A DNA stretch of 45,985 nt from positions 1 through 45,985 of IMG/VR virus record IMGVR_UViG_3300005253_000003. One strand, written 5' to 3'. A program made the position numbers and the translations under genes. Positions 1-45,985 of the stretch are shown here, in pieces. The notes beneath the pieces are model-generated. The model did not search any database, was not told where the DNA came from, and worked only from the letters and a program-made list of their open reading frames with translations. How positions within the stretch are numbered: the stretch's first letter is position 1; the number at the start of each line of letters is the position of its first letter. The DNA comes from a virus.

Positions 1-121
1 CTACGGCTGCAGCTTCCTTCTCTGCCTGCACCCGGAGATCGGCTGCTGTGTCGGCACGGGCTAGCGCGTCATCACGTTGTTGCTTGAGGCTGTCTGCGCG
101 GCCCTGTGCGGCCTGTACTTC
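1..121. repeat. Terminal direct repeat, left copy
   Basis: The first 121 bases are identical to 45865-45985. The repeat lies inside a coding region, and the reading frame continues perfectly across the join. This is the signature of a circular contig with a k-mer-sized overlap. I read it as an assembly overlap of a circular or circularly permuted genome and not as a biological long terminal repeat, although a short physical terminal redundancy cannot be excluded. Confidence 0.95.
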
Positions 122-235
122 ACCCCCCGCCGAGACGCCGCGCCGCCGGCCCCAGAGCCAGCCTAGCCCCACCACAGCGCCGGCAATCGCCAACACAGCG
201 AGCAGGACGCGGCCGATCTTTCGGAGCAGCTTCAT
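1..235 (-). CDS. Membrane-anchored coiled-coil protein, possible spanin-like lysis protein (N-terminal part)
   Basis: This gene starts at an ATG at 235 and runs off the left window edge. Its C-terminal part is at 45767-45985. Joined over the 121-bp overlap it encodes 110 residues. Residues 1-7 are basic (MKLLRKI), residues 9-28 form one hydrophobic helix, and residues 38-82 are an Ala/Gln/Asp-rich heptad-like coiled coil, followed by a Pro stretch (KPPPPTG) and a basic C-terminus. The N-in single-anchor plus coiled-coil layout resembles inner-membrane spanins (Rz type). That role is inferred from shape and position, between a holin-like gene and the endolysin. The start overlaps the holin-like stop as ATGA (232-235), with an AAGAAGGA ribosome-binding site just upstream. 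Confidence 0.75.
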   Translation of the reverse strand, partial: MKLLRKIGRVLLAVLAIAGAVVGLGWLWGRRRGVSAGGEVQAAQGRADSLKQQRDDALARADTAADLRVQAEKEAAAV

Positions 236-624
236 TCCTTCTTCAGATCCCCCGGAGCCACCGTCTGCCCCGGCAGCGCCAGCACCACCCCACGCTTTGC
301 GGCTGCCCGGCGCAGCACCTCGAAGAGCCACAGAGACAGAGCCCCCGCTACACCGAAGTAAGCAGCCGCCGGGACTATTCCCATTACAGCGGGTTCGGGG
401 TTGCGCCAGAAAATACCGATCACGATCCCCGACAGTACAGGGTGCAGCGGCAGCGTCTTGCGTGCCCAGTACCACAGCCATTTGGGCCGCAGTGTTTCCG
501 CGTGTTTTTTCGTGAAGATGTTTTTCACCATCACCTGCCCGATCACCATCGCGATCACAGCCCATGCGATGAAGGGCCAGTGTGGCAAAACGTGAGCGTT
601 GAGAAATTCCATTACTTGATCCAT
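232..624 (-). CDS. Small membrane protein, probable holin
   Basis: The 130-residue product has three hydrophobic segments: about residues 17-34 (ending GQVMV), 62-73 (VLSGIVIGIF) and 79-104 (rich in Ala, Gly and Leu, ending LWLFEVL). A basic stretch (residues 35-56) and a charged C-terminus (DLKKE) flank them. The size, number of membrane spans and position directly before the coiled-coil protein and amidase fit a holin, which would form inner-membrane pores that release or activate the endolysin. No holin family is recognised by sequence, so the function is inferred. An AGAGG motif lies about 11 nt before the ATG at 624; a second ATG at 612 is an alternative start. Confidence 0.7.
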   Translation of the reverse strand: MDQVMEFLNAHVLPHWPFIAWAVIAMVIGQVMVKNIFTKKHAETLRPKWLWYWARKTLPLHPVLSGIVIGIFWRNPEPAVMGIVPAAAYFGVAGALSLWLFEVLRRAAAKRGVVLALPGQTVAPGDLKKE

Positions 625-653
625 CTCTGTACTACCTCTTTTGAAAAAGTGCC

Positions 654-730
654 TGGGCCCGGATCATTATAGCGCAAGGGAGAGAAGGATTAAAACCCGA
701 CCCTGCGCCACACCTACAGACCCGGGCCCA
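654..730. repeat. Inverted repeat in the 114-bp gap before the holin-like gene
   Basis: TGGGCCCGG at 654-662 is the exact reverse complement of CCGGGCCCA at 722-730, with a 59-nt loop. Each arm also contains the self-complementary GGGCCC. The gap 625-738 holds no gene. The pair could fold into a transcript hairpin before the lysis genes, but no U-tract follows it, so I do not call it an intrinsic terminator. Confidence 0.45.
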
Positions 731-738
731 AACATAAA

Positions 739-1077
739 CTAGCCACCCCCGGATCGCACCCGCTCTCTTGGTGGTTTCAGACGCATTTCATCCAGTACGC
801 GAGTGATGCGATCTAAGATCTCTGTCTGCTTCTCTTGCGTTTTTTCAATCGCTACCATCGTCATGCGCATTGAGACCAATGGAGTCACCCCATGGACATC
901 AGTTTGGGTGTGCTGCTTGTACATGTGGCGAACGTGTCCCGCCATTTCTTCCAGCTTTCTTTCGTCGGTTGCGTCTTGGCCCTTCTTCCACTTCAAAATA
1001 AAGCTGAAAACTTCACGCAACAGCAGCAGGGCAACTACTGCCCCTAATCCAAGCTGTGTCCAATCTGTAGAAGCCAT
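739..1077 (-). CDS. Single-span membrane protein of the lysis region
   Basis: The 112-residue product has one hydrophobic helix at about residues 8-28 (GLGAVVALLLLREVFSFIL), then a basic stretch (KWKKG) and a long charged, amphipathic and probably helical domain ending in RSGGG. It lies between the tail-fibre gene and the holin-like gene, in the usual place of phage lysis genes. The topology (short N-terminus out, long charged domain in the cytoplasm) fits a one-span holin or holin regulator, but nothing in the sequence proves it. No good ribosome-binding site is seen before the ATG, so expression may be coupled to the fibre gene, which ends at 1080. Confidence 0.65.
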   Translation of the reverse strand: MASTDWTQLGLGAVVALLLLREVFSFILKWKKGQDATDERKLEEMAGHVRHMYKQHTQTDVHGVTPLVSMRMTMVAIEKTQEKQTEILDRITRVLDEMRLKPPRERVRSGGG

Positions 1078-1079
1078 GG

Positions 1080-2279
1080 CTACGCAACGATGATGTCTAG
1101 AAGACTGCCACCCCTACCGCCAAGACACATACCCGCGTGTGTAGTCTTATCGCTCTGACCCACTACGATCAGACGATCAGTGTGGTAGGTAACGGCAGGA
1201 TCTATTGCAGAGCCCCGCAGAAAACTTGGTTGCCGTCGCACCAACCACGTTGCACCCCCATCAGTGGATCGCAGCAAATGATTTGCGGTAGCCATGTAGA
1301 GCGTGCCGGCACCATCAGAAACGATGGATGTGATGTCTTCTGCCAAGTCCCCGTCAATGCTTTTGTCAGTCCATGTAGTGGTGCCGTTGGGGCTCACCGC
1401 GATCTTACCGCCGTCGCCAACGATAATAAAAAGCCCCGACTTGGGATCCCAAGCACAGTCATTGAAATCAACCCCGGCTAGCGAACCGGGAAGATTACCG
1501 GATTGATCGGTGTGGCTAGTGGCATCCCCGTTGATGCTTTGAACTCGTACCCCTACACTTAACCCCACAGTGATGAAGCGATCCAAAGTAGGTGACCAGA
1601 TCGCAGCCTTTCCGGCAAAGCCGTTTGAGGCCCACGCAGTGCCGTTTGTGCTTTGGATTGTTTCAGCCCCTACCGGCATGATGATGTGAGTTGCACTCTC
1701 TGCCATGCCTCCATGATTACCGGCACCAATAGAAGGATCTGTGCGTACAGTGAATGCGCCTGTAGGATCAGCCGCAGTCAAGATCAGATCTGTAGAACCT
1801 GTCTTGGTGCCGATGATCCAAAGTCCGGCAACCACTGAAAAGATCATTGATCGGGGGTGCTCAATTCCGATGAAGTCCCCAGGGTTTGAGTTAGTCTGCC
1901 AAGTAACCCCATCATCACTACGCAGCAGTACTTTGCTTCCAGAGTGAGCCCCAAGCATCGCAAGCTGTGTTGCTACAGGTTGCTGCAAACGGGATGCGAT
2001 TCCTAGTAGTTGCCCCGCTGTGATTGTTGCCGTCGTATACAGCGTAGGCTCAATCGGAAGCAGTGACATGAAGTCTTGCTTCTCCAGGTATTGCAGCCAC
2101 TGCCCCCGGGCGTTTTCATCATGGTTGAATTCCTGCGGGGGCGGTTGCTCTTCAGGCAACCAACCTTCAACCCGCTTGCCTGCACCCGGATCGCTTTTCG
2201 TCGGTGTACCGGCTTTGGGGGGGCTTGTGTAATTTAGATCAGTTGCCCACACGGGGGGATCTACGGCTGGTCTAGGCAT
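1080..2279 (-). CDS. Tail fibre or receptor-binding protein with beta-propeller repeats
   Basis: The 399-residue product is a likely host-recognition fibre attached to the baseplate. The first 65 residues carry the N-terminal pattern of many phage fibres (PPxWATDLNY, GTPTKSDPGAG, then an N-rich WLQYLEKQ segment) that anchors to the baseplate. The rest contains repeated Ser/Asn-Gly-x-x-Trp turns (LLRSDDGVTW, IQSTNGTAW, AVSPNGTTTW, LLRSTDGGATW) with intervening hydrophobic strands (LFIIVGDGGKI, RFITVGLSV). These BNR/sortilin-like repeats point to a beta-propeller tip. It follows the DUF2612-type baseplate gene by 5 bp, where fibre genes usually sit. No separate fibre chaperone is seen. The sugar or protein it binds is unknown. 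Confidence 0.75.
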   Translation of the reverse strand: MPRPAVDPPVWATDLNYTSPPKAGTPTKSDPGAGKRVEGWLPEEQPPPQEFNHDENARGQWLQYLEKQDFMSLLPIEPTLYTTATITAGQLLGIASRLQQPVATQLAMLGAHSGSKVLLRSDDGVTWQTNSNPGDFIGIEHPRSMIFSVVAGLWIIGTKTGSTDLILTAADPTGAFTVRTDPSIGAGNHGGMAESATHIIMPVGAETIQSTNGTAWASNGFAGKAAIWSPTLDRFITVGLSVGVRVQSINGDATSHTDQSGNLPGSLAGVDFNDCAWDPKSGLFIIVGDGGKIAVSPNGTTTWTDKSIDGDLAEDITSIVSDGAGTLYMATANHLLRSTDGGATWLVRRQPSFLRGSAIDPAVTYHTDRLIVVGQSDKTTHAGMCLGGRGGSLLDIIVA

Positions 2280-2284
2280 GATGT

Positions 2285-2905
2285 TTATCCTTCTTTGTTT
2301 CCGAACTTGCCACCCGAGGGGGTGTCTGAATTGAAAAAGCCCTTATCAGGATCGTTGGGTCCATCACCACCGAAAGTGAAGGTGTCTGCCTTCAGCGTGG
2401 TTGTGTAAATGAAATCGAGTTTGATCCCTGCACCCCGCGCATCGTTTAACAGATTGAAAACGATCAAAGGATCAAGCGGCCCAATGTCAGTGAGCAAAGA
2501 AATACGAAGAGCGGCCGGGGGTACATCTAGCAAAAGTATTTCTGCGGGTTGCTCCACACCTGTCAGCGTTGCAACTAACGCTAAAATCTCGATCAACTGC
2601 TCTGCGTGCCCATCCGATCGATTTACTTTGATGCGTGCTTTGATGATGGTGCGGTAGTCATCATCATCAAGTCCTACCCGCTCTGGTTGCCCAACGATGA
2701 CACCAAGTATGTCAAGCTGCACACCTACAGCCGCATCAATGGTGCGATCTGTGATCAATTCAAATAGCGCATCTTCTAATTCCTGCACCTGATCCAGAAA
2801 GATCAAAATGAGCGAAGCCAAACGCGGCTTGTTCTTGTAGCGATCGATGAAGAGCAGCAACCCTTCTGCGGTGTGCTGCGTGTTTTTGGTAATCTCTTGG
2901 GGCAT
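2285..2905 (-). CDS. Baseplate wedge-type protein, DUF2612-like
   Basis: The 206-residue product follows the baseplate J-like gene. It has the layout of DUF2612/gpI-like proteins: an N-terminal helical half (residues 15-100, including LQLDILGVIVGQPERVGL followed by DDDDYRTIIKARI) and a C-terminal beta-rich half ending FTFGGDGPNDPDKGF. In Pam3-like and P2-like tails this protein joins the J protein to form the wedge that carries the fibres. That role is family knowledge; the match here rests on the conserved VGQPERxGL-DDxxYR stretch and gene order. Confidence 0.8.
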   Translation of the reverse strand: MPQEITKNTQHTAEGLLLFIDRYKNKPRLASLILIFLDQVQELEDALFELITDRTIDAAVGVQLDILGVIVGQPERVGLDDDDYRTIIKARIKVNRSDGHAEQLIEILALVATLTGVEQPAEILLLDVPPAALRISLLTDIGPLDPLIVFNLLNDARGAGIKLDFIYTTTLKADTFTFGGDGPNDPDKGFFNSDTPSGGKFGNKEG

Positions 2906-2914
2906 CTGCTTATT

Positions 2915-4512: not shown

Positions 4513-4514
4513 GA

Positions 4515-6369: not shown

Positions 6370-7232
6370 TTAAACAAACTTTCCACGAAATCTATACCAG
6401 CATCAGTAAGTTTTTTCGCTGCACTTGCTGATCGCTCTGGGGCTTTGTCTTCTGTGGTGCGCTTGTTGCCCCGCTTGCGGCTTTTCTCCCCACGTGTCTG
6501 CAGGGGCTCTGTGATCTGCACTGTCTCTGTTGAAACAACCCGCACCTGCACCGCATCGAGAGTGATCCGCACTGAATCTGTAGCCTCTATGGGTGTCTCC
6601 ATGTTTTCAAAGATCATGTTTTCGTAGGTGCGCAGACTTGTAACGATCTTGATGAAGGTGCCTGTAGCTATGATCTTGCGTAGCTCTTCATAGACTTCAT
6701 TAACCCGGTTGAATTCCTGCGAGAATTGCAACACGGTTGCGCCCGGCCCATCTGCGGCAGCTTCAGGTATGATCGGCTGCGGTGTGAATTGAGGTTTGAT
6801 CCCGGGGATCTTCACAGAGCCTGCAAAGGTGATCCCCAAACCTACAACAGCCGGAGCACCTGCGGCTGCCGCAATTGCTCCAATGCTCACCCCTTTTGTC
6901 AGATCTCGCACTGTACGCGGGGGGCTGCCGGGGTTTGTCAGGATCGGGTTGCCGTCCTGCCTGCGGGGAGGTGAGGTAGCAAAAAGGATCGTGGGCTGGA
7001 ACGCGCTTGTTGCACCGCTGGCGTGTGACCCGGGCTGCCGGATCGGTGTGTTCGTGATCATGACTGTAACGGTGTAACGGTCATTCTCTGGCCGCACGTT
7101 GTCACTGATGTTGGTTCCTTCATCAACCGCGTGCTCTGTGACCAGAGCCGCATTATTGTGCGTCTCTTCAATGGTTGCATCAACACTGATCAAAGCTTCT
7201 ATGCCGCTAGGCTTTGTGAAAAAGATTTCCAT
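6366..7232 (-). CDS. Dit-like tail protein
   Basis: The 288-residue product lies directly after the tape measure. Its N-terminus (FTKPSGIEALISVDATIEET) and the NDRYTVTVMITNTP segment match the Dit-like N-terminal domain of simple myophage tails, a beta-sandwich around the first tube ring. A central hydrophobic Gly/Ala segment (residues 115-137) is followed by a second folded part with RVNEVYEELRKIIATGTFIK and TYENMIFENMETPI, also typical of the family. The C-terminal 50 residues are basic (GEKSRKRGNKR) and probably disordered. Confidence 0.75.
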   Translation of the reverse strand: MEIFFTKPSGIEALISVDATIEETHNNAALVTEHAVDEGTNISDNVRPENDRYTVTVMITNTPIRQPGSHASGATSAFQPTILFATSPPRRQDGNPILTNPGSPPRTVRDLTKGVSIGAIAAAAGAPAVVGLGITFAGSVKIPGIKPQFTPQPIIPEAAADGPGATVLQFSQEFNRVNEVYEELRKIIATGTFIKIVTSLRTYENMIFENMETPIEATDSVRITLDAVQVRVVSTETVQITEPLQTRGEKSRKRGNKRTTEDKAPERSASAAKKLTDAGIDFVESLFN

Positions 7233-24619: not shown

Positions 24620-25225
24620 TCACAGCCGGTTCCATTCTTCGTAGTCCGGTACGGGCCGCTTTGCTTTCTTCTCTTCCTTCTTGTACGCCTGCCAGTCACC
24701 ATACCCCGCAGCCGTGCGCAGGGCCAATGCTTCTGTGTTGGTGATCCACTCCAGGGGCTCAACGATGGTGGGCCGCGCATCGGGCCCGTACTCGCACAGG
24801 ATGCAATCCTTTGGAAACGCTGTCTCATGCCAACCTTCAAACGGCAGACGCGGGTGCAGGGCATAGGTGGTTGCGTAGGGGTAGACGTGCTCCCGGTACC
24901 ACGCCGCACCGATGGACGCTGGCACCAATCCGTAGATCGTGAAATCCGATCCCCCTTCCTTGGCGCACTTTTCCATGAACGCACGGATCATTCCAAACTC
25001 AGGATTTAGCCAACCCATGCCACCTGGAAAACTGCCGGCCCATTCAACCTCTAGCGAATCCATTTCAGGGGTTATGTAATGTGAGGCTTTGCTGTTTTCT
25101 GATGTAGCTGCAAGGTCCACGATGAAAGGCCGGCCCTGCAACTCTTCGATCACGCGGATCAATTCGATCGGCGTTTCGTAATTCTGCTTGCTATTCGATC
25201 CGCTTGTGAGTCGGGGGCCGGTCAT
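24620..25225 (-). CDS. Phage Dam-like DNA N6-adenine methyltransferase
   Basis: The 201-residue product matches the phage DNA N-6-adenine-methyltransferase family (T1 Dam type). Signatures are YETPIELIRVIEELQGRPF (TP-x-x-L start), FIVDLAATSENSKASHYITP (SAM-binding DAA-like motif, residues 36-40, followed by N-x-K), EMDSLEVEWAG and GWLNPEFG (catalytic motif, residues 74-77). The usual NPPY/NPPF is NPEF here, an unusual substitution. The enzyme would transfer a methyl group from SAM to adenine, in this family usually in GATC, protecting phage DNA from restriction. The phage is very rich in GATC. It overlaps the Zn-ribbon gene by ATGA (25222-25225). Confidence 0.85.
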   Translation of the reverse strand: MTGPRLTSGSNSKQNYETPIELIRVIEELQGRPFIVDLAATSENSKASHYITPEMDSLEVEWAGSFPGGMGWLNPEFGMIRAFMEKCAKEGGSDFTIYGLVPASIGAAWYREHVYPYATTYALHPRLPFEGWHETAFPKDCILCEYGPDARPTIVEPLEWITNTEALALRTAAGYGDWQAYKKEEKKAKRPVPDYEEWNRL

Positions 25226-25776: not shown

Positions 25777-26009
25777 TTTGCCTGCCGGATCATTTGGCGC
25801 ATGGTCACAATACTATCAACACCGCGAATCGTTCCGCAGTTGATTGATTCAACTAACCCACGCTCTCTGCCTTTCGCACACCACCCACAAGAGCAGTCAG
25901 GTGCCACGGGCAGATCGGCATAGTACAACCACTTCCACTGAAACCGGCTGTTGCGCAAGGGTGACTTGTACTGCTTTTCACGCCGGATGATTACTTGAGG
26001 TTTTGCCAT
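25749..26009 (-). CDS. Small cysteine-containing protein of unknown function
   Basis: The 86-residue basic protein begins MAKPQVIIRREKQYKSPLRN. It contains a CSCGWC cluster (residues 39-44) and further Cys at 58 and 78 that may bind metal. The WKWLYYADLP stretch is aromatic-rich. A GGGGAAG ribosome-binding site precedes the ATG. No family recognised; it is one of a run of short, overlapping genes that often encode host-takeover proteins. Confidence 0.65.
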   Translation of the reverse strand: MAKPQVIIRREKQYKSPLRNSRFQWKWLYYADLPVAPDCSCGWCAKGRERGLVESINCGTIRGVDSIVTMRQMIRQANCVPIELWI

Positions 26010-26012
26010 AGC

Positions 26013-26180
26013 TCACTTCCCCCTGCGCGCGTTCTTGTTTACCCACAAAATGAAACCGCACATGCAAGCCCCAGGATACATCTTGCGATCGTAGGCTAGT
26101 TGGGCTTCCGGTGTCCCTTGGTGCGCGGCTGCATACTCAAGATAACGTGGGTTCCAACCTGTTGCGTTTGTGTTTTTCAT
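26013..26180 (-). CDS. 55-residue protein of unknown function
   Basis: This short gene begins MKNTNATGWNPRYLEYAAAH and ends WVNKNARRGK. Evidence for its reality is the ATGA overlap with the stop of the upstream gene (26177-26180), a GGAGA motif about 13 nt before the start, the 3-nt gap to the next start, and the way it exactly fills the gap between two coding regions. The sequence pattern (H-Q-G-T-P-E-A-Q, then C-M-C) suggests a small helical protein with a Cys pair. Function unknown. Confidence 0.7.
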   Translation of the reverse strand: MKNTNATGWNPRYLEYAAAHQGTPEAQLAYDRKMYPGACMCGFILWVNKNARRGK

Positions 26181-26419
26181 CGCTCAACCGTCTCCAGATG
26201 CGCGATAGCAGTGTCAACTGCATTGCGCCATTGTCTCGGTGTGATGTCCCAGTTGTGGCAGTCGGTTTCGTCAGCTACTACAGATGCCGCTCGTAGCTCA
26301 ACCAGTGTGTTGTCATTGCAGCACGCCTCCGCGAATTTCGCGGCCTGCGGGTCATGAGTGTGCAGATCCCAAAGCGGTGTGTACATGATGTGTGTATTGT
26401 TTGTGTTTTTGGTGGTCAT
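26177..26419 (-). CDS. 80-residue protein of unknown function
   Basis: I choose the ATG at 26419 over one at 26446 because it forms an ATGA overlap with the upstream stop and has GGAGG at 26431-26427, seven bases before it. The protein is acidic and helical in its second half (PQAAKFAEACCNDNTLVELR; RQWRNAVDTAIAHLETVER). No family recognised. Confidence 0.7.
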   Translation of the reverse strand: MTTKNTNNTHIMYTPLWDLHTHDPQAAKFAEACCNDNTLVELRAASVVADETDCHNWDITPRQWRNAVDTAIAHLETVER

Positions 26420-26640
26420 TGGCTCGCCTCCGGTGCGGTTACCCATGCCTTCCCCGACCCCAAGAAAAGCGTGACAGAGCGCCCCTCAAGCATCTCGTCG
26501 ACGAGATCCAGCTCGTCCATGTCGAGCGCTAGCACTTCGCCCTGTAGTGGTTCAGAGAGCACGCTCTGGCCCTTGGCTGAATAGTGGTTAGCGATGCGCT
26601 GCGCCAGTGCAAACAATTCCTTCTGTGTCTTGATTTCCAT
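26416..26640 (-). CDS. 74-residue protein of unknown function
   Basis: The product begins MEIKTQKELFALAQRIANHY. It has a helical first half, an acidic DMDELDLVDEMLEG segment and a short strand (SVTLFLGSGKAWVT). It is the first gene after the 26663-26680 palindrome and a promoter-like TTGCGC/CATATT pair, so it probably begins its own transcript. No family recognised. Confidence 0.7.
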   Translation of the reverse strand: MEIKTQKELFALAQRIANHYSAKGQSVLSEPLQGEVLALDMDELDLVDEMLEGRSVTLFLGSGKAWVTAPEASQ

Positions 26641-26662
26641 TCATCTAATATGCACCCTTTCT

Positions 26663-26680
26663 TTAAGGTGCGCAACTTAA
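26663..26680. promoter_or_regulatory. Operator-like palindrome upstream of the 26640 gene
   Basis: TTAAGGTGCGCAACTTAA is an 18-bp near-perfect palindrome (only the G/A pair next to TGCGCA breaks it). It starts 23 bp upstream of the ATG at 26640. On the minus strand it contains TTGCGC followed by 17 nt and CATATT, a plausible sigma70-like pair. A 16/18 match lies at 27132-27149, before the gene at 27109. A bound repressor would cover the -35 region. Confidence 0.6.
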
Positions 26681-26690
26681 ATCGACAGCT

Positions 26691-26939
26691 TCAGCGAAGA
26701 AAACCACGCCTGCGACCTTGCCACGCTTGGTGGTGGTGGTCCCCTCTGGTTGCGAGCCACAGATCCCGCAGGTACGTCCCTTTGCTGCTACTGCCTGCCC
26801 TGCGCGCGTCTGCGTTGAGTTGTCCTGCTTCCCGGGCAGATAGCAGCACGTTCACGCGCACCCCGCCTGCGGCTCTGCCTCGCTTCGTGGTGGTGCTTCC
26901 TTCGGGCCGGCCCTGGATGGGCTCTGTTGGTTTGGTCAT
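26691..26939 (-). CDS. 82-residue basic protein, possible DNA-binding
   Basis: The product begins MTKPTEPIQGRPEGSTTTKR. The middle (VRVNVLLSAREAGQLNADAR followed by RAGSSSKGTYLRDL) has the strand-helix-helix pattern of ribbon-helix-helix proteins such as Arc/CopG. The C-terminus is rich in His, Trp and Arg. It lies between the two operator-like palindromes, which fits a small autoregulator; this is inference. The start overlaps the upstream stop as ATGA (26936-26939). Confidence 0.6.
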   Translation of the reverse strand: MTKPTEPIQGRPEGSTTTKRGRAAGGVRVNVLLSAREAGQLNADARRAGSSSKGTYLRDLWLATRGDHHHQAWQGRRRGFLR

Positions 26940-27109
26940 GGCAGCCGATCCACAGGCAAAGCGCGGATACTTTCCGCTATCAGACTCCCCGGCCCACTAC
27001 CAGTCGCATCGGCTTCCAGCGCGCACAGCTCTCTCATGCGCTCTGCTTCTTCGCGTAACATCTTTTCAGTTCGCTCTTCTTCGGCTTCAATATCCTCAAT
27101 ATCTCTCAT
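26936..27109 (-). CDS. 57-residue helical protein of unknown function
   Basis: This short gene begins MRDIEDIEAEEERTEKMLRE and ends ESIRALPVDRLP. The first 33 residues are a highly charged helix. Support: an ATGA overlap with the next gene, an AGGGTTGGGGA purine run before the ATG, and a palindrome (27132-27149) plus terminator (27148-27186) just upstream, giving a complete transcription-unit start. Function unknown. Confidence 0.65.
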   Translation of the reverse strand: MRDIEDIEAEEERTEKMLREEAERMRELCALEADATGSGPGSLIAESIRALPVDRLP

Positions 27110-27131
27110 TCCCCAACCCTACACCGATTGT

Positions 27132-27149
27132 TTTAGGTGCGCAACATAA
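27132..27149. promoter_or_regulatory. Second operator-like palindrome
   Basis: TTTAGGTGCGCAACATAA matches the 26663-26680 site at 16 of 18 positions, including all of GGTGCGCAAC. It lies 23 bp upstream of the ATG at 27109, the same spacing as at the first site (26663 and 26640). On the minus strand TTGCGC is again followed by a 17-nt spacer, here to a weak -10 (TAGGGT). Confidence 0.55.
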
Positions 27150-27186
27150 AGAAAACCCCCACCCGGCGTCGCTTCCAGGTGAGGGG
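27148..27186 (-). terminator. Intrinsic terminator upstream of the small-gene block
   Basis: On the minus strand CCCC(T)CACC pairs with GGTGGGGG-type sequence around a 14-nt loop, followed by TTTTCTTT. It ends transcripts coming from terS before the promoter region of the gene at 27109. Confidence 0.65.
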
Positions 27187-27248
27187 CTTCAAGGTTTTGC
27201 TTTGCTTTGTTTTCAACCGCTCAACACGGCAGGGGGGCACCCTAGCAC

Positions 27249-27298
27249 AAAAACGAAAGCCCCATGCCATCCGGTTAGCAATTCCGGCGGTTGGGGCT
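27249..27298 (-). terminator. Hairpin with T-run, probable terminator
   Basis: On the minus strand AGCCCC (27298-27293) pairs with GGGGCT (27263-27258). Inside, CCGCCGG pairs with CCGG(A)TGG. TTCGTTTTTG follows. It is tandem with the 27148-27186 terminator. Confidence 0.6.
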
Positions 27299-27660
27299 CT
27301 CTACCTCCTAGAGGTACCGTTTCAACGTTGAACGATCCCACCCTAGCACAAAATCAACGGGGACCCCACCAGTGCCCAGTCGCTACTTGGACACCGATGA
27401 GGGTTTGCGCAGCGCTTGCGTCTCCTATCCCCAGGCCATCGCCCTGGTTGCGAACCAAAGCAGCCGGCACATCGCCTACAACCTACCACAAAAAGAAAAA
27501 ACCCCGGCTTTACGTCCCCTCCTGGCCCTAGAGTCATGACTTCCGGTACCAGGTGGGACGGCTCAACTCATAGCCTAGGGTTGCACAAAGGCCAATGTTA
27601 GAAACTTCGGAAGCAAACCTAATTTCCTGCTGAACAGGATCACCCTACACCACCATCCCC

Positions 27661-27712
27661 AAAAAGTGAAGACCCCAGGGGTAGGGAGCGACACCCACCC
27701 CTGGGGGACTTC
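27661..27712 (-). terminator. Strong hairpin after terS, probable terminator
   Basis: GAAG at 27668-27671 pairs with CTTC at 27709-27712. Inside, CCCC, AGGGGT and GGG pair with CCC, ACCCCT and GGGG (two single-base bulges), making a very stable stem around a 7-nt loop. On the minus strand CAC and five T follow. It lies 26 bp after the terS stop. Confidence 0.7.
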
Positions 27713-27737
27713 TGGCAACCCCGTCCAAAGGTGGCCG

Positions 27738-28304
27738 TTATGCGCTCGCTTTTTCCTTCAATCGCTTCAACTCTTTCAACTCTTCAACATCCAGTTTGGA
27801 GAGATCCAACCCATCGCTGTTTTCGGTGCGCTCTGTTGCCTCACCACGCGATAGCCGCTCAAGCTTGATGCCCGTTTCCATGATGCGCGACACGTCTGCA
27901 GGCTTGGCATCATCCACAGGATCGTGCGTGCGCTCTTCGGCCTTCGCTGCAAGCTTGCCGATCTCAGTGCCTGCAAACCGCTGCAGCATCATCGCACTGC
28001 GTGCGTGCCGCTTGTTCATTTCCCTAATGGTCTTCTCTGTTGTCTCAAGCGCAAGGCTGTCCAGGTGCATGTCATACAGCGTGCAGCGCTCTTTCCATCC
28101 GTGCTCTGTAGACCATACAGCCGCTTGTGATAGCTGAATTCCAGCCGCTTCAGCCACAAGCCGCAGACTGCGCCGGCCGGGCCGCTCACCGAACATTGAG
28201 CCCATGTCCCGATAGCGCACGAAGCCGTCCCACATCTGATCTGTGTCAGTTGGTCTGCGTTCCCACGGGCGTGGGGCGTGCTCTGCTTCGGCTGCGGTGC
28301 TCAT
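27738..28304 (-). CDS. terS: Probable terminase small subunit
   Basis: The 188-residue product would recognise the packaging site and load the large terminase. An N-terminal stretch (DQMWDGFVRYRDMGSMFGER) leads into a helix-turn-helix pattern, LRLVAEAAGIQLSQAAVWST then EHGWKERC (residues 46-75), very like small terminases whose DNA-binding domain ends W-x(2)-R. A long central coiled coil (ALETTEKTIREMNKRHARSA) would make the oligomer, and the charged C-terminal helix (DVEELKELKRLKEKA) would contact the large subunit. It lies 5 kb upstream of terL, an unusual separation. AGGA precedes the ATG. Confidence 0.78.
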   Translation of the reverse strand: MSTAAEAEHAPRPWERRPTDTDQMWDGFVRYRDMGSMFGERPGRRSLRLVAEAAGIQLSQAAVWSTEHGWKERCTLYDMHLDSLALETTEKTIREMNKRHARSAMMLQRFAGTEIGKLAAKAEERTHDPVDDAKPADVSRIMETGIKLERLSRGEATERTENSDGLDLSKLDVEELKELKRLKEKASA

Positions 28305-28324
28305 CGTTCCTGTCTCGCTGGGGT

Positions 28325-28337
28325 CCTGCTAGGCAGG
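28325..28337. repeat. 13-bp palindrome in the terS leader
   Basis: CCTGC-TAG-GCAGG is a perfect 5-bp inverted repeat with a 3-base centre, 21 bp upstream of the terS ATG. It could be a small operator or a hairpin in the leader. Confidence 0.45.
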
Positions 28338-28376
28338 CTAACACACCCGGTGCCCACACCACACCAAAAGTCTCCT

Positions 28377-28681
28377 GTCAACACCAAACAGCCCCGCAAC
28401 ACTTCTTTTTGGTGTTGACGTGCTGTTGACACCTACTGTTGACACTAAAAAACACCTAAAAACGTTGAATCATTATGCTTTTTCAGCAACGTCAACAGCG
28501 CAACAGCAATCCCCTTCTTCTACCCTTACCTCACCAAATCAAAGTTGCATTGTGTCATAGATCTTCAAATTGATATAGCGGTTTCATAGGGGTGTTGCAC
28601 TGTTGCAGTCACCTTATCTTTACGATATCCTTAAGGAATACCGCAACATTTGTGTGTCAACAGTACGTCAACACTGTTGAC
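28377..28681. repeat. Iteron-like cluster of eight TGTTGAC boxes
   Basis: TGTTGAC occurs on the plus strand at 28413, 28424, 28437 and 28675. Its reverse complement GTCAACA occurs at 28377, 28491, 28656 and 28667. Two boxes make a perfect 12-bp inverted repeat (28377-28388 with 28408-28419). Two others make the perfect 15-bp palindrome GTCAACACTGTTGAC (28667-28681). Spacings of 11 and 13 bp between the direct copies suit helical phasing. Confidence 0.75.
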
Positions 28682-28708
28682 ATTTTCTTAACGCACTGCT
28701 AAGCCTTT

Positions 28709-28872
28709 TTCAATGATTACAGGTTTCTAGAGTTTTTTCATTAACACACTGAATTAAAATGTTATTAACAAGATGTAACAATGATTTAACGCACCTAATT
28801 AACTCACCTAGCCATAATACCTACATCTAAGCCCTTCAATATGCTTTATCTTCAATGATTTCAGATTTCTAG
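28709..28872 (+). repeat. 22-bp imperfect direct repeat in the AT-rich tract
   Basis: TTCAATGATTACAGGTTTCT plus AG at 28709-28730 recurs at 28851-28872 with only two differences. Shorter relatives (AATGATTT) lie near 28779 and 28896. The copies are 142 bp apart and frame the most AT-rich part of the region. Confidence 0.6.
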
Positions 28873-29047
28873 CTGAAAGCACACTTTTCACCTCTAATGA
28901 TTTCAAGCCTTTACCAAAATGCTCAAGCAGTGTTAAAAGGGCTTGACAAAACTTTCTTAGCTCAGAACTTGCGCCCGCTCCGGACCCGATCCTAAAGTGG
29001 CTCCCCCGTCCAACTGTTGAAACCGTGATTAGCCAAAGCCCACAACC

Positions 29048-31901: not shown

Positions 31902-31904
31902 CCC

Positions 31905-32873
31905 TTGATCGAGATCATCAACGGCAACTGTCTGCAAGAATGTGCAGAGCTAGAGCCCAACAGCTTTGATTCTGTTGTGACAGATCCACCCTATGAGCTT
32001 GGCTTCATGGGTAAGGATTGGGATCGCAGTGGGGTTGCCTACGATCCTGCAACGTGGGCAGCGTTTCTGCGTGTCTCCAAACCCGGCGCACACCTGTTGG
32101 CGTTCGGTGGCTCACGCACCTACCACCGGATCGCTTGTGCAATTGAAGATGCCGGGTGGGAGCTTCGTGATTGCATCCTGTGGCTTTACGGCTCTGGATT
32201 TCCCAAAGGCAAAAGCGTTTTGAAACCTGCTTATGAGCCTGCGATTCTGGCACGCAAACCGCTTGAAGGTACGGTTACAAAGAATGTGCAACGGTACGGC
32301 ACCGGAGCGATCAACGTTGACGGGTGTCGGGTTGATGCCAAAGGACGACCACTAATAATATCCCATGCAGATAAATCGCTGAATACCTATGGCGACGGCT
32401 TGAATGGTAGCCGCGCAGCAGGAACAATAGACGTAGGCCGGTGGCCTGCTAACGTGATCCTTGATGAAGAAGCCGGGCAACAGCTAGACGCACAGAGCGG
32501 CAACGTGGGAGCCGCTGCACCCGTCAAGGGTACAGAGCCAAGCGCAGCTAGCACCGGCAATGTTAAGGGCAAGCGTGATCGTGTGCCGGGGGTATTTCAT
32601 GGTGATGCGGGTGGTGCGTCTCGGTTTTTCTACTGTGCCAAAGCCAGCAAGAAAGATCGCGGTGAAGGCAACACACACCCCACCGTGAAGCCGCTTGCGT
32701 TGATGCAGTATCTTTGCCGGCTTGTCACCCCACCCGGGGGGCTTGTGCTTGATCCCTTCTGCGGCAGTGGCACCACCGGGGCTGCCTGTGTGGCAGAAGG
32801 TTTTGATTTTGTGGGCTTTGAGTTAGATCCACAGTACGTAGAGATCGCAGAAAGAAGAATTGGTGATGGATAA
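31905..32873 (+). CDS. DNA methyltransferase, beta class (N4-C or N6-A)
   Basis: The 322-residue product starts at a TTG with a GGGGGAGG ribosome-binding site. The catalytic motif VVTDPPYELG (residues 24-33) comes before the SAM-binding motif LDPFCGSGTTGAACVAEG (about 282-299) and THPTVKP (about residue 252), the order of beta-class enzymes that methylate N4 of cytosine or N6 of adenine. About 170 residues between the motifs are the presumed target-recognition part. No cognate restriction enzyme is present, so it is an orphan enzyme, probably for protection against host restriction. The target site cannot be predicted. Confidence 0.9.
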   Translation: MIEIINGNCLQECAELEPNSFDSVVTDPPYELGFMGKDWDRSGVAYDPATWAAFLRVSKPGAHLLAFGGSRTYHRIACAIEDAGWELRDCILWLYGSGFPKGKSVLKPAYEPAILARKPLEGTVTKNVQRYGTGAINVDGCRVDAKGRPLIISHADKSLNTYGDGLNGSRAAGTIDVGRWPANVILDEEAGQQLDAQSGNVGAAAPVKGTEPSAASTGNVKGKRDRVPGVFHGDAGGASRFFYCAKASKKDRGEGNTHPTVKPLALMQYLCRLVTPPGGLVLDPFCGSGTTGAACVAEGFDFVGFELDPQYVEIAERRIGDG

Positions 32874-38149: not shown

Positions 38150-38178
38150 CAACAAAAAGTGAAAGTGAGAGTGAAACA

Positions 38179-38646: not shown

Positions 38647-38653
38647 CAACCCC

Positions 38654-38679: not shown

Positions 38680-38701
38680 CCAACCAGAGAGAAGGATTAC
38701 C

Positions 38702-39037
38702 ATGTCAAGCAAAGAAGCAACGTACCGCGCACAGCTAGGTGAAGCACTGGTGCAGATCGTGGATCTACAGGTTGAATTGCAAGCCTGCCAGGATCAACCT
38801 GTACACGTTGAAAGCAGAGCAACCGAGACCCTAGAGAAGTGCCGCGAAGCCAACGAGGGGCTTGCGAAGCAGGCTCTAGATCGCGGTGTGAAAATTGAGG
38901 AGCTAGAGAAAGAGATTGCAGAATTAGCAGCGGTCAGAATTAAACAGAGCGATAGAATAGGAGAGCTTCTAGAAGAGCTTACAGAAGCCGGCACGCAGAT
39001 CAAGTTTCTGCAGAAGCAGATCAAAGAGCAAGCGTGA
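38702..39037 (+). CDS. 111-residue coiled-coil protein
   Basis: The start at 38702 follows AGAGAGAAGGA. The whole product is helical; residues 15-108 form heptads (QIVDLQVELQACQDQ; IKQSDRIGELLEELTEAGTQ). It overlaps the polymerase GTG by 4 nt (39034-39037). It may be a polymerase accessory or a bridging protein; nothing specific is visible. Confidence 0.7.
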   Translation: MSSKEATYRAQLGEALVQIVDLQVELQACQDQPVHVESRATETLEKCREANEGLAKQALDRGVKIEELEKEIAELAAVRIKQSDRIGELLEELTEAGTQIKFLQKQIKEQA

Positions 39038-41010
39038 TCCCTGTCGCTTTAGATACTGAAACCGCGTTGATTGGTGTGGGCAATCTTGCCCCGCCACTCA
39101 CGTGCGTTTCGTGGGCAGACGTTAACGGCAGCGGGCTGTACGAATGGACACACAACGAGACAGAAGATCGGTTGTGGGATTGGGTGCAGGACTATCAGAT
39201 CATCGGGCTGAACATCGCTTACGATCTGACGGTGATTATGACGGAGTACCCCGATCAATTGCTGCCAGTGTTCGACGCCTACAAGAATGATCGCGTCACA
39301 GATATTGGACTGCGGCAGAAGTTGATCGATATCGCGCACGGGAAGTTTCGGGGCTACCGAGATGCCATGACCGGCAGCTACAGCAAGTATGAGTACGGCC
39401 TGGCAGCCCTGGCAGAGCGGCATCTACAGATCACTCTGGACAAAGAAACCCACCGGCTGCACTTCGGTGAGCTTCGCACCGTGCCCGTTTCACAGTGGCC
39501 CGCAGGAGCAGCCGAGTACGCGATCAGCGATGCAGTAATGACCTTCAAGATCTGGCAGATTCAGGAAGATGGATTTTCCCATCTGCTAGCGGATCAGTAC
39601 CGGCAAGCCCGGGCAGCGTTGGGGCTGCATCTGATTTCTTGCTGGGGCATCCGTACCAACGCAGACAAGATCGTAGAATTCACCGGCACCGTTGAGGGGC
39701 TGTTTGAAGAAGCCGTTGAGCATTGCACCCGTGAAGGTTTGGTGCGCGGCGACGGCACCCGCGACACCAAGAAAGCCCGGCAGCACATGCTAGACGTGCT
39801 TGAAGAATTGGACGCGCCGATCAATCGCACAAAAAGCTACATCCCTCTGCGCCGCAAGCGTGATGCCGGTGAAGAGCTAACGAAACGCAACTTGAAGGAT
39901 CTAGAAGATCCGCTCTTTGGTGTGTCCTGTGATGAAGAAGCCTGCACCGGCACCGGGGATGAATTGCTTATCAGCTACTCCCGGGTGTCAAGCTTAAAAA
40001 CGGTGGTGCAAGATCAGATCCCTGCGCTCTGGAACGGCACCACGGGGCCCATACAGCCCCGGTTTGATTCGCTGGTTGAGACAGGCCGCACAAGCTGCAA
40101 GGGCTACAGCGATGAGCAACCCACCAACGGCTACCAGATGCACAACGTGCGGCGCCTGCCGGGCATTAGGGAGTGCTTCACTGCCCGCCCGGGCACCGTG
40201 TACGCAGACGCGGACTACAGCGGCCTGGAGCTGTTCACATGGGCCCAGGTGTGCCTGTGGGCCCTGGGAGAAAGCCGGCTGGGACAGGCTCTCAACACCG
40301 GGGAGGATGCCCACCTGATTCTGGGAGCAGAGCTACTGAGTTGCACCTACGAAGAAGCCCTTGCCCGGTACAACGAAGGGGATGAAGAAGCTTCAGAAGC
40401 CCGGCAGTTTGCCAAGATTGGCAACTTCGGTTTCATGGGTGGGATGCAGCCCCCCACGTTTCGATCGTGGGCCCGGCAGCAATTCAGTGTGAAATTTTCT
40501 GAAGAGTTTTCAGAGCAGATCCACGCTGCATGGCACACGGCGTGGCCCGAAGCGCAACGGTACTTCATCTGGATCAAGGCTCTGTGTGACACCGGGGGCG
40601 GGTACGCGACGGTGAATCAATTTTTGAGTGAGCGCACCCGGGGGCTCATCCCTTTTACCGTTGTAGCAAACACTTTTTTTCAAGGGCTTGGCGCTGACAT
40701 TGCAAAAGAGGCACTTTTTCAAATTCAAGAGGAGTGTTACTGCGTGCCAGGCTCTGCGCTGTACGGCAGCCGCATGGTCAACTTCGTGCATGACGAGTAC
40801 ATGCTAGAGGTACCCGAAGAGATCCACGCAGCCAACGAAGCTGCAGATCGCATGGTAGCGATCATGGTTGAAGTCGCGCAGAAGTGGCTGCCTGATCTCA
40901 ACCCGGGTGCGGAAGTTGCCCTGATGAAACATTGGAGCAAGAAGGCAAAGCCGGTGCGCAACGCAGAAGGCTTGCTGATTCCGTGGGAAGAGAAGGAGCA
41001 AGCGGCATGA
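39034..41010 (+). CDS. Family A DNA polymerase with 3'-5' exonuclease
   Basis: The 658-residue product starts at a GTG (GTGA overlap with the previous stop). The exonuclease domain shows ALDTET (motif I), GLNIAYDL (II) and YAISDA (III). The polymerase domain shows motif A YADADYSGLELF (about residue 390), motif B RQFAKIGNFGFMGG (about 457-470) and motif C VNFVHDEYMLE (about 583). The R, K and F of motif B are conserved, but the Tyr equivalent to E. coli Tyr766 is Gly, as in the FG-x-x-GG subgroup of phage enzymes. It is the replicative polymerase of this phage. The N-terminal 5'-nuclease of bacterial Pol I is absent. Confidence 0.95.
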   Translation: MIPVALDTETALIGVGNLAPPLTCVSWADVNGSGLYEWTHNETEDRLWDWVQDYQIIGLNIAYDLTVIMTEYPDQLLPVFDAYKNDRVTDIGLRQKLIDIAHGKFRGYRDAMTGSYSKYEYGLAALAERHLQITLDKETHRLHFGELRTVPVSQWPAGAAEYAISDAVMTFKIWQIQEDGFSHLLADQYRQARAALGLHLISCWGIRTNADKIVEFTGTVEGLFEEAVEHCTREGLVRGDGTRDTKKARQHMLDVLEELDAPINRTKSYIPLRRKRDAGEELTKRNLKDLEDPLFGVSCDEEACTGTGDELLISYSRVSSLKTVVQDQIPALWNGTTGPIQPRFDSLVETGRTSCKGYSDEQPTNGYQMHNVRRLPGIRECFTARPGTVYADADYSGLELFTWAQVCLWALGESRLGQALNTGEDAHLILGAELLSCTYEEALARYNEGDEEASEARQFAKIGNFGFMGGMQPPTFRSWARQQFSVKFSEEFSEQIHAAWHTAWPEAQRYFIWIKALCDTGGGYATVNQFLSERTRGLIPFTVVANTFFQGLGADIAKEALFQIQEECYCVPGSALYGSRMVNFVHDEYMLEVPEEIHAANEAADRMVAIMVEVAQKWLPDLNPGAEVALMKHWSKKAKPVRNAEGLLIPWEEKEQAA

Positions 41011-41345: not shown

Positions 41346-41551
41346 CCAGACACAAAAATACAAATTGGTGGCATGAATCTGGCCAATGGATGCATCGTCC
41401 ATGGTTCAAGGTACTCATCAACACCATTTTGCGCACTCTTCAGCCATGGAAAAGGGGCCGTAAGTTTTTGCTTGTAAGCATATGTGATGATGAGAGCAAT
41501 CCCCCGAAACTTCTAGGATATCAATTCTCTATGATCGGGATGAAGCCATGA
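41342..41551 (+). CDS. 69-residue protein of unknown function
   Basis: The start overlaps the upstream stop as ATGA (41342-41345). The basic, Trp-rich N-terminus (MTRHKNTNWWHESGQWMHRP) and an amphipathic helix (WFKVLINTILRTLQPWKRGR) are visible. No family recognised. Confidence 0.65.
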   Translation: MTRHKNTNWWHESGQWMHRPWFKVLINTILRTLQPWKRGRKFLLVSICDDESNPPKLLGYQFSMIGMKP

Positions 41552-42377: not shown

Positions 42378-42381
42378 AACC

Positions 42382-43215: not shown

Positions 43216-43514
43216 GCGCAGCGCCCCCGAATTGGGGACGCCCATCAAAATGGTTGCCACCCGGAATGCTAGACCGTGCTGTTGAAATACGATCAATCGT
43301 GAAGCACGGATGTATGCGCACCTACCAGACAAGCTGGGAAGACGTTGCAATCCAGTTGCACCGCGAAGGCTTCCCTCTCGTGGACAAGGCGACGATTCGC
43401 AGGCGCGTTCTACGTCACCAGGTTTCGCACGGTCTAGCCGGCGCAACCGTGCGAAAGTACAAACGCACGAAACCTGCAGGGTCCGTGCGAAAAGCCAGGC
43501 ACAAACGTGGCTGA
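43212..43514 (+). CDS. 100-residue basic protein, possible DNA-binding
   Basis: The start overlaps the upstream stop as ATGA. The strongly basic protein has an AEIRSIVKHG-like helical part (VEIRSIVKHGCMRTYQTSWE), a second helix (DKATIRRRVLRHQVSHGLAG) that could form a recognition helix, and a basic tail (YKRTKPAGSVRKARHKRG). Winged-helix or homeodomain-like DNA binding is possible but not certain. Confidence 0.62.
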   Translation: MSAAPPNWGRPSKWLPPGMLDRAVEIRSIVKHGCMRTYQTSWEDVAIQLHREGFPLVDKATIRRRVLRHQVSHGLAGATVRKYKRTKPAGSVRKARHKRG

Positions 43515-43707
43515 CATAACCGAAGCTGCAGCGAAGCATACGCAGCCATCCCACACTGAAAACCACAAAGCCCGGCAGGAGCAGATCCGCATCTTGCTGC
43601 GGCTTGGGGATCTTGAAGATGCTGAAGCAAACCTTGTGGACGCGCTAGCCCGGGCCCGGGCAGAGATCACAATGCTGCGGGAGAAAATGAAGCTCTTTCA
43701 GAAATGA
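43507..43707 (+). CDS. 66-residue helical protein
   Basis: The start is the GTG at 43507, 8 nt inside the previous gene. The protein is polar in its first 20 residues and then a long helix (QEQIRILLRLGDLEDAEANL; DALARARAEITMLREKM). It overlaps the next gene as ATGA. No family recognised. Confidence 0.58.
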   Translation: MADITEAAAKHTQPSHTENHKARQEQIRILLRLGDLEDAEANLVDALARARAEITMLREKMKLFQK

Positions 43708-44252
43708 ATGTGCTGATCGCATGCGAGTTTAGCGGCATTGTGCGGGATGCTTTCCGGCGCAGGGGGCATGAAGCGTGGAGCGTTGATCTGTTGCTGTGTG
43801 AGGCAGATGCAGAGCACCACCTACAAGACGATGTGCTCAACGTGCTGGACATGGGTTGGGATCTGATGGTTGCTCACCCACCCTGCACGCACTTGGCAAC
43901 CAGCGGCGCACGGTGGTTCAAAGACAAGCAACCAGAGCAACGGGCTGCGCTGCAATTCGTGCGGCAACTGTTGGACGCGCCGATCCCGTGCATCGCACTT
44001 GAGAATCCGATATCAGTTATTTCCACCAAGATTCGCAAGCCGGATCAAATCATTCAGCCGTGGCAGCACGGGCATGGTGAGACGAAAGCTACTTGCCTGT
44101 GGTTGAAGAATCTGCCGCTGCTAGAGCCAACGCTAGTGGTAGAAGGTAGGGCCCACAGGGTTCACAGGATGGACCCAGGGCCCAACAGGTGGCGTGAGAG
44201 ATCCCGCACCCTCACCGGGATAGCTGAAGCGATGGCCTATCATTGGGGTTAG
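43704..44252 (+). CDS. Minimal C5-cytosine methyltransferase-like protein
   Basis: The 182-residue product has the SAM-fold start NVLIACEFSGIVRDAFRRRG, a D at the second strand (WSVDLLL), the catalytic-looking Pro-Cys (VAHPPCTHLATSGARWF; PPC at residues 59-61) and ENPIS (residues 100-103, like the ENV motif), then HGETKATCLWLKNLPLL. These are motifs I, IV and VI of C5 methyltransferases, but there is no separate target-recognition domain and the protein is half the usual length. It may be a small methylase or a modification enzyme of a known but little-studied phage group. Its stop interlocks with that of the converging gene. Confidence 0.72.
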   Translation: MNVLIACEFSGIVRDAFRRRGHEAWSVDLLLCEADAEHHLQDDVLNVLDMGWDLMVAHPPCTHLATSGARWFKDKQPEQRAALQFVRQLLDAPIPCIALENPISVISTKIRKPDQIIQPWQHGHGETKATCLWLKNLPLLEPTLVVEGRAHRVHRMDPGPNRWRERSRTLTGIAEAMAYHWG

Positions 44253-44668
44253 CTACCCCAAGCGTCTGACCGCTTGCCCTCTTCAAATTCTTTCTGCACC
44301 CGGTAGGCCACCACTTCAAACCAGATCGCGCGGTACGCGTCTGCGTGGCTCATGCCCCGTGCGCGGTTGATCAAGTAGTTGCCCCCATACAGCGGCAAGA
44401 AGAGCGGCCCAAGCACTAACCTTTGCTTCACATGCACGAATTCATGCACACGCACTGACGCTTTGTCTTCTTCAACCAGCACCACCCAACTGTGTGTCTG
44501 CCCGTTGATCCATTCTCCACCCGGCACACGCTGCACCGTGATCACCAGTGCGCCCTGATGCCATTTCCAACCTATGGGCCCTGCCCACAACGCCAGCACC
44601 AAACCCAATAGAGCGTTAGGAAGTGACCACAGGTACAGCGGCGCAGCAAGCCAGGTGGGAGGCTTCAT
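44249..44668 (-). CDS. Membrane protein with HExxH motif, putative metallopeptidase
   Basis: I start at the ATG at 44668 (139 residues, ATGA overlap with the upstream stop); a longer reading is an antisense-like extension. Residues 5-30 form a membrane helix (LAAPLYLWSLPNALLGLVLA). After beta strands (GALVITVQRVPGGEWINGQT) comes VRVHEFVHVKQRLVLGPLFL. The HEFVH is a HExxH zinc motif (H-E-x-x-H), followed by an NYLINRARGMSHADAYRAIW helix with a possible third ligand downstream. It is the last lysis-region gene. The motif suggests a small membrane-bound metalloprotease, but activity is unproven. Confidence 0.68.
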   Translation of the reverse strand: MKPPTWLAAPLYLWSLPNALLGLVLALWAGPIGWKWHQGALVITVQRVPGGEWINGQTHSWVVLVEEDKASVRVHEFVHVKQRLVLGPLFLPLYGGNYLINRARGMSHADAYRAIWFEVVAYRVQKEFEEGKRSDAWGS

Positions 44669-45057
44669 CGCAGAACCACGGCAGCGGTTGCACCTACCAG
44701 CGCACCCACCGTAAACAAAACCACCGGCTGCCTGTACCACGCATCGAGCTTGGCTTGCACTGTATCGGCCCGGGCTTCTACCTTGAGGGCTGTCCGCTCC
44801 CACAAGTCGGCGCGCTCGTTTGTGGCGTCCACTGCGATCCGCACGTTGACGATCTCGATTTTGGCAAGCTCCAATTGCCGATCAAGAAGTCTGATCTTGT
44901 TTTCCTTCAGCGGCGCAAGCTCATCCAGAACGTTGAGCCGCTGCGCTTCTTTCAGTACGAACCACACCCCGTCTTTGCCGTCGTGCTGCAGCGGTACCGC
45001 TACATCATCAGCCCGGGCCACACCGGACAGCAGCAGAATGAAGATCAGTACCCGCAC
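44665..45057 (-). CDS. Exported protein with C-terminal membrane anchor
   Basis: The start is a GTG at 45057 with GGGAG eight bases before it. This gives a clear signal peptide, MRVLIFILLLSGVARA then DDVAV (cleavage predicted after ARA). The body is a coiled coil (KENKIRLLDRQLELAKIEIV; TNERADLWERTALKVEARAD) and the C-terminus has a hydrophobic segment (PVVLFTVGALVGATAAVVL). Signal plus coiled coil plus terminal anchor is the layout of single-protein or outer spanins. It overlaps the amidase by 13 nt and may act in disruption of the outer membrane; this is inference. Confidence 0.7.
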   Translation of the reverse strand: MRVLIFILLLSGVARADDVAVPLQHDGKDGVWFVLKEAQRLNVLDELAPLKENKIRLLDRQLELAKIEIVNVRIAVDATNERADLWERTALKVEARADTVQAKLDAWYRQPVVLFTVGALVGATAAVVLR

Positions 45058-45770
45058 TTGATTAACTCCCTGAAGAGATCCAACCCTGGATCGCTCTTCT
45101 TTGCGCTGATGTGAAAGTGTCCGCACACACCGTCAAACTGTGCAAGCTCACTCTTTGCCATCTTACGAGAAATGAATGCATTGTCAGGAGTGCGCGGCAC
45201 CTTGCGCGCGATCTTGGTTTTGCCTGATTCGATCACGGCATCGATCAGAGCTACAGCCGCTTTGATCTGCGCCGGGAAGAAGTGAGCGAAGCGGCAGTTG
45301 CGCCCGTTCAAAACACACTGGTAGTGCGTGCGGTTGACGCTGTTGCGGCCGGCACCAAAACCATAGTTTACGATTTCAACACCGATGCTGCGCTTGTTGT
45401 ACGGACCCGCATCGAAGGTATCTACCCGAAGCGGATCGCAGAATTGCCAGATGTCCCCGTCATGCCCGATCGCGAATTCGATCCCAAGCTCTCTGCGGTC
45501 TAGCACCTTGAATACTCTGTCCGGGGGTGCCTCCCCGCCAGTCCAGTGCAGCACGAAGAGATCTAGATCGGTCTGCTTTGGATGCCGGCGGCGCGCACCG
45601 TCCCCCGCTTCAAACTCCAGCCCGTGATCATGCCAGGTCTTCACCCCACCGGGGGCCGTGGGCACGGGGACAGGCTCCCCTCCCAAGATGATGGACGGCG
45701 TAGGCGGGCCGGCGTCTTCAGGCCCATCAACCCACTCTGATTCCGTGTCTTTTTCTTCTGCGTCGCTCAT
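45045..45770 (-). CDS. N-acetylmuramoyl-L-alanine amidase (endolysin), Amidase_2/T7-lysozyme-like
   Basis: In this 241-residue protein residues 1-45 are an acidic Pro-rich linker. Residues 68-230 form the amidase: DLFVLHWTGG (H75, zinc), ELGIEFAIGHDGDIWQ, SIGVEIVNYG (E132) and VCGHFHISAKKSDPG (H218 and D227 as further ligands). It would cut the amide bond between muramic acid and L-Ala of peptidoglycan. No signal peptide or wall-binding domain is seen, so release depends on the holin. The start overlaps the coiled-coil gene as ATGA (45767-45770). Confidence 0.9.
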   Translation of the reverse strand: MSDAEEKDTESEWVDGPEDAGPPTPSIILGGEPVPVPTAPGGVKTWHDHGLEFEAGDGARRRHPKQTDLDLFVLHWTGGEAPPDRVFKVLDRRELGIEFAIGHDGDIWQFCDPLRVDTFDAGPYNKRSIGVEIVNYGFGAGRNSVNRTHYQCVLNGRNCRFAHFFPAQIKAAVALIDAVIESGKTKIARKVPRTPDNAFISRKMAKSELAQFDGVCGHFHISAKKSDPGLDLFRELIKCGY

Positions 45771-45985
45771 GATTTACGCTCCCTGGCTCGCTTGTTGAAA
45801 GCATCTGCGACCCCCTGCCCTGTGGGTGGTGGCGGCTTCACTTCTACCGCATGGATCTCCGCGTCTACGGCTGCAGCTTCCTTCTCTGCCTGCACCCGGA
45901 GATCGGCTGCTGTGTCGGCACGGGCTAGCGCGTCATCACGTTGTTGCTTGAGGCTGTCTGCGCGGCCCTGTGCGGCCTGTACTTC
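45767..45985 (-). CDS. Membrane-anchored coiled-coil protein (C-terminal part)
   Basis: This is the other end of the gene that begins at 235. The stop is TGA at 45769-45767, and 45865-45985 repeat bases 1-121. This segment encodes the coiled-coil end, the KPPPPTG linker and the basic C-terminus (FNKRARERKS). On the closed circle the gene is intact and 110 residues long. Confidence 0.75.
   Translation of the reverse strand, partial: EVQAAQGRADSLKQQRDDALARADTAADLRVQAEKEAAAVDAEIHAVEVKPPPPTGQGVADAFNKRARERKS
45865..45985. repeat. Terminal direct repeat, right copy
   Basis: Identical over 121 bases to 1-121. The reading frame of the membrane-anchored coiled-coil gene runs through both copies without change, so the ends can be joined to a circle of about 45,864 bp. 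Confidence 0.95.

Follow-up and report, generated by a model that had tools for sequence, protein, structure and literature searches.

GATC is accumulated in one phage genome and nearly deleted in its sister, and a Dam-like gene does not account for the excess

Background

Counts of palindromes in phages are usually interpreted in a single direction, as restriction avoidance, and host restriction is an established cause of GATC loss (PMC6286503). Here we consider a case of the opposite kind, a stand-alone virus record of 45,985 bp and 54.3% GC (the whole stretch analyzed, hereafter the window), which is rich in GATC and also encodes a Dam-like protein. The original prediction tied the two together: the enzyme would methylate GATC, and the sites would have accrued as a label used in packaging, in the timing of replication or in repair. 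Does such a gene explain the excess, and if not, what might?

The excess is not new in kind, since mycobacteriophages of subcluster B3 are already on record with an about fourfold genome-wide excess of GATC, unlike their sister subclusters; it was left unexplained by the authors, the mycobacterial hosts are without Dam, and GGATCC is over-used more than fourfold (PMC4841201). The window resembles B3, as known here from the published description, in its threefold-plus genome-wide excess, and differs in that phage and host are unrelated and that GGATCC occurs at 12 sites against about 13 expected, for which reason we rejected this larger word as the driver. In HF1-group haloviruses, on the other hand, GATC is absent though several members encode an N6 methylase and the haloarchaeal host DNA is GATC-rich (PMC7230728). 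Haloarchaeal genomes with an orphan Dam over-represent GATC, which the authors tie to the cognate orphan methylase (PMC6471742); these are, however, cellular genomes, and the corresponding link fails for PF05869, the Pfam family of the window's Dam-like protein, in the phage loci tested here.

Results and discussion

GATC accumulation is word-specific and genome-wide

Across positions 1..45985, without regard to strand, we counted 546 GATC sites (11.9 per kb); with both strands considered, no other tetramer is as frequent. Base composition predicts 177 sites (3.09x) and a first-order Markov chain 178 (3.07x), which bears out the predicted over-representation and places the window opposite to palindrome avoidance. 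A maximal-order Markov model yields a ratio of merely 1.16 (z 6.2), but we set it aside as the main test because GATC itself inflates the counts of GAT and ATC.

Could favored GAT and ATC codons raise GATC in the ordinary course of codon and context usage? Arithmetically, the 3.1x excess splits into roughly 1.9x from codon and amino-acid usage and 1.7x from word context, and codon-model ratios of 1.4-1.8 are seen in many relatives and host stretches. Nevertheless, under a codon-preserving shuffle, which holds both the protein sequence and the codon usage fixed, the coding DNA contains 473 sites against about 275 expected (276 +/- 10; z about 16; window ratio 1.71), and GATC ranks first among 136 tetramers for over-representation. 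All three codon frames show the excess (observed/expected 196/129, 34/9 and 243/135), as does the DNA outside assigned genes, with 71 sites against about 27 expected. The excess also survives when codon-junction dinucleotides are held, with 243 versus 134 in frame 2 (z 14) and 34 versus 17 in frame 1 (z 6); this null fixes frame 0 by design, and that frame is thus outside its reach. Further, GAT makes up 90% of the Asp codons that precede a C, whereas the T share of Asn, His and Tyr codons in the same position is 24-43%. The junction-preserving null refutes a full account in terms of codon usage or of generic junction context, and we regard an explanation along these lines as very improbable. 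The accumulation of GATC is word-specific and genome-wide rather than a side effect of codon usage; given that every codon frame and the DNA outside genes are enriched, it is to be placed at the level of double-stranded DNA. A source in octamers like the cyanobacterial HIP1 was likewise rejected, with CGATCG accounting for just 20 of the 546 sites.

Along the genome the sites are randomly spaced (CV 0.99; biggest gap 537 bp). Two stretches had been singled out by hand counts: 6601..7080 indeed has 12 sites, and 39001..39480 has 9 rather than the 10 first counted. As the mean over all 480-bp windows is 5.7, these are local peaks on a genome-wide excess. The poorest stretch is 26001..29000, a region of small unassigned frames between divergent gene blocks with 13 sites (4.3 per kb; Poisson p 4e-6), and lowered values extend across 22.7-29 kb (O/E 1.8-2.0), as against 3.2 or more in other regions. 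The suggestion that an AT-rich control region is poorer in GATC thus stands as to the deficit, albeit at a local O/E that is still 1.77, and falls as to composition, the GC content of 26001-29000 being 0.53 overall. Random spacing fits an additive, site-by-site pressure rather than one in which sites at set places serve packaging or timing.

The window encodes two methylase-related proteins

The Dam-like protein (24620..25225, minus strand, 201 aa) was correctly recognized as a homolog: it matches PF05869 at 50.9 bits (cut-off 28.1) and the phrog_111 DNA methyltransferase family with an e-value of 8e-24. In clearing the Pfam cut-off it is like the phage N6-adenine methylases of PF05869/TIGR01712. 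It is unlike them in scoring below the cut-off of the TIGR01712 phage_N6A_met equivalog (44.2 bits versus 97.05) and in bearing NPEF in place of NPPY at motif IV. NPPY is found in 10 of 10 named phage PF05869 homologs and in 68 of 68 parsed viral homologs (a set partly picked on the WLNPPY pattern), so that all parsed homologs outside the window's lineage have it. Because of the NPEF motif, the catalytic activity of this protein appears doubtful. Matches to laccases in the PDB (e-value at least 0.004) were dismissed as chance.

A second enzyme, absent from the original prediction, is encoded at 31905..32873 (plus strand, 322 aa). It matches the N6_N4 DNA methylase family PF01555 (e-value 6e-31) and displays both the DPPY motif (TDPPYELG) and the FCGSG motif (DPFCGSGTT), by which it is predicted to be an intact-looking beta-class N6/N4 methylase. 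CcrM and DpnA, whose targets differ, are among its nearest solved structures, and many mycobacteriophages carry homologs about 50% identical to it. Of the two, the PF01555 protein would be the more credible GATC modifier.

GATC is the contested word of a polymerase lineage

Neither the window's methylase nor its portal, used singly as query, found relatives in scans of viral contigs. The family A DNA polymerase (39034..41010, plus strand) recovered 78 viral loci, whose GATC O/E ranges from 0 to 3.66; the relatives' records are classed as linear and may be fragments, and their genes were taken to be the longest open frames. No tetramer varies more than GATC across 75 polymerase-related loci (SD 1.71 log2, against a median of 0.37), with 11 loci at an O/E of at least 2 and 10 at 0.2 or less. 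At the upper end, by the plain Markov measure, MW202816 (3.40) and the fragment L026 (3.66) stand beside the window, with G011, G041 and G035 lower at 2.0-2.5. At the lower end, G002 has 1 GATC in 44.6 kb, and the sister genome G001 (IMGVR_UViG_3300025018_000046; L007-L009), with a polymerase 56% identical to that of the window, has 2 in 42 kb; both resemble the HF1-group haloviruses in having GATC purged, while the window is enriched. The polymerase gene itself has 24 GATC in the window and 0 in the G001 ortholog. G001 further has 1 AATT and 2 TTAA, three tetramers being purged together in this genome.

On a maximum-likelihood tree of the polymerases the rich, middle and poor classes require at least 12 changes. 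A five-member clade with full SH-aLRT support unites the window with L019, L020, L021 and L005/G001; its four methylase carriers have an O/E of 1.5-3.1, whereas L005/G001, in which three Pfam families and a motif scan found no methylase, stands at 0.02. These results show GATC to be the contested word in this lineage, with near-complete loss in several members and accumulation in others. That one word can go from absent to threefold enriched between sisters whose polymerases are 56% identical amounts to a natural experiment on the worth of GATC, and this within-lineage contrast is a useful addition beyond the B3 precedent.

Possession of a methylase gene does not predict the excess

The nearest-clade contrast is still compatible with the original prediction, under which the PF05869 enzyme methylates GATC and the sites serve as a mark. 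So are the above-cut-off PF05869 match and the presence of a PF05869 gene in MW202816 (locus L013, 17949-18584), the other strongly GATC-rich large relative. However, motif IV is altered there too, to NHPY, and the two PF05869 proteins are just 22% identical over 114 residues. Moreover, 107 dereplicated viral loci with PF05869 have a median GATC O/E of 0.95 (IQR 0.79-1.09; 2% at 2 or more, none at 3 or more), and ten named PF05869 phages lie at 0.45-1.35, which rules out the presence of PF05869 as a general cause. Together with the random spacing, these results make a Dam-dependent mark improbable. Owning a PF05869 "Dam" gene does not account for the GATC excess of the window.

We then took as carriers of an adenine methylase all loci with PF05869, PF02086 or PF01555 above cut-off, and as having no methylase those in which neither these three families nor a scan for [DNS]PP[YFW] gave a convincing candidate. 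Carriers and non-carriers differ little in codon-model ratio (median 1.31 versus 1.10, p 0.14, the loci being not fully independent), and tree-independent pairs reveal no link between methylase presence and GATC excess. Strong purging (ratio below 0.4) is seen in 0 of 20 carriers versus 9 of 51 others (p 0.053). With codons held fixed, an excess equal to that of the window (1.71) is found in G011 (2.41), G041 (1.68) and G035 (1.60), which have none of the three families and no convincing candidate in the motif scan, though their plain Markov values are lower (2.0-2.5 versus 3.07) and their records may be incomplete. Equal excess in relatives without an adenine methylase is what the original prediction had named as counting against itself; overall, that interpretation is partly supported, the over-representation and the Dam homolog having been upheld and the tie between them not. 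The window serves as a control case in this regard: that a GATC-rich phage has a Dam-like gene does not prove the cause of the richness, as readers of annotation easily assume.

Sampled candidate hosts do not reach the phage's GATC level

The original prediction had also allowed that the phage mirrors a GATC-rich host. A genome scan found members of the polymerase family in two Labilithrix MAGs, a Myxococcaceae MAG, a deltaproteobacterial MAG and a Planctomycetales MAG. One of them, L133, lies on a 276-kb myxobacterial contig (JAHBWC010000001.1, Labilithrix MAG); it is probably a prophage and points to a possible host group of the lineage. GATC leads the codon-model tetramers (1.80) in the Labilithrix MAG carrying a member of the family, and the sampled Myxococcota are mildly GATC-rich in many cases (median O/E 1.24). 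As haloarchaea set a precedent for GATC-rich cellular genomes (PMC6471742), word usage adopted from an unsampled and very GATC-rich host is conceivable. Against it, 83 genomes from three candidate phyla, sampled at up to 20 kb each, give no support to mirroring, with a maximal O/E of 1.76, although the window's own host may lie outside this sample. The closest tetramer signature among the sampled host genomes reaches r 0.48, as against 0.60 between MW202816 and the window, and close relatives span O/E values from 0.02 to 3.07. We consider host mirroring unlikely. A host D12 (Dam-type) methylase was rejected as the basis of the Myxococcota excess (no association, p 0.49).

Two words neighboring GATC are depleted

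On the codon model the two most depleted tetramers of the window are GAAC/GTTC (0.36) and GACC/GGTC (0.38), both one step from GATC, and their deficit holds for each frame, for either strand and for the DNA outside assigned genes. Across the polymerase family GACC is anti-correlated with GATC (rho -0.50, p 3e-6). These patterns, like the random spacing, would fit a mutational or repair bias in which replication or repair converts near-GATC words to GATC without selection on the word. On the other side, the third neighbor word at the same position, GAGC/GCTC, shows no overall depletion, and GAAC shows no correlation with GATC among the family members (rho -0.03). Such a bias would require both C-to-T and T-to-C shifts, and the DNA outside genes and the middle region are less enriched, not more. 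Mere conversion to GATC is also countered by the summed deficit of the neighbors, which exceeds the GATC surplus. We therefore view a mutational origin as rather unlikely. GAAC/GTTC and GATC are both words of the Dnd (phosphorothioation) system, a circumstance that brought mimicry of phosphorothioation into consideration.

A proposed sign-changing pressure on GATC

The reading we tentatively prefer, as plausible while still short of probable, is a pressure on the GATC word that changes sign, its direction being set by the fate of GATC in the infected cell. Where that cell has a GATC-cutting nuclease, sites would be lost; wherever a host Dam or one of the two phage methylases modifies GATC, sites would be safe, and every added modified site might confer a small additive benefit, for instance shielding from host nucleases. 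This modified-site model is favored by the word-specificity of the excess, its lability across the 75 loci, the lack of any strongly purged methylase carrier, the nearly GATC-free sister and the random spacing, and is further backed by the sampled hosts staying below the phage's GATC level. Counting against it are the GATC-rich relatives with no recognized methylase along with the weak methylase association, the occurrence of PF01555 homologs in GATC-rich and GATC-poor relatives alike, and the GAAC/GTTC depletion of the window, for which it does not account. In its full form, the proposal would be that word-specific selection changes sign within one polymerase lineage, and that the threefold excess reflects positive selection for the density of (probably modified) GATC, independent of a recognized phage Dam gene, as an anti-restriction strategy opposite to avoidance; this larger claim is possible, but on balance doubtful. 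A phage with 7-deazaguanine-modified DNA was rejected, as QueC-type PF06508 was found neither in the window nor in 14 relatives, while 12 of 14 control genomes matched.

Other words also show extreme usage among the relatives. AGCT is nearly absent from G041 (L138-L140; ratio 0.01), as is the non-palindrome AAAT from G015 (L147-L149; 0.01). TTAA is nearly absent (O/E 0.01-0.02) from four relatives, namely G016 (L150-L152), G009 and G025 (L159-L163) and G017 (L172-L173). In Xanthomonas phage XaC1 (L185), GTAC is over-represented 3.5x within the 18-kb stretch read.
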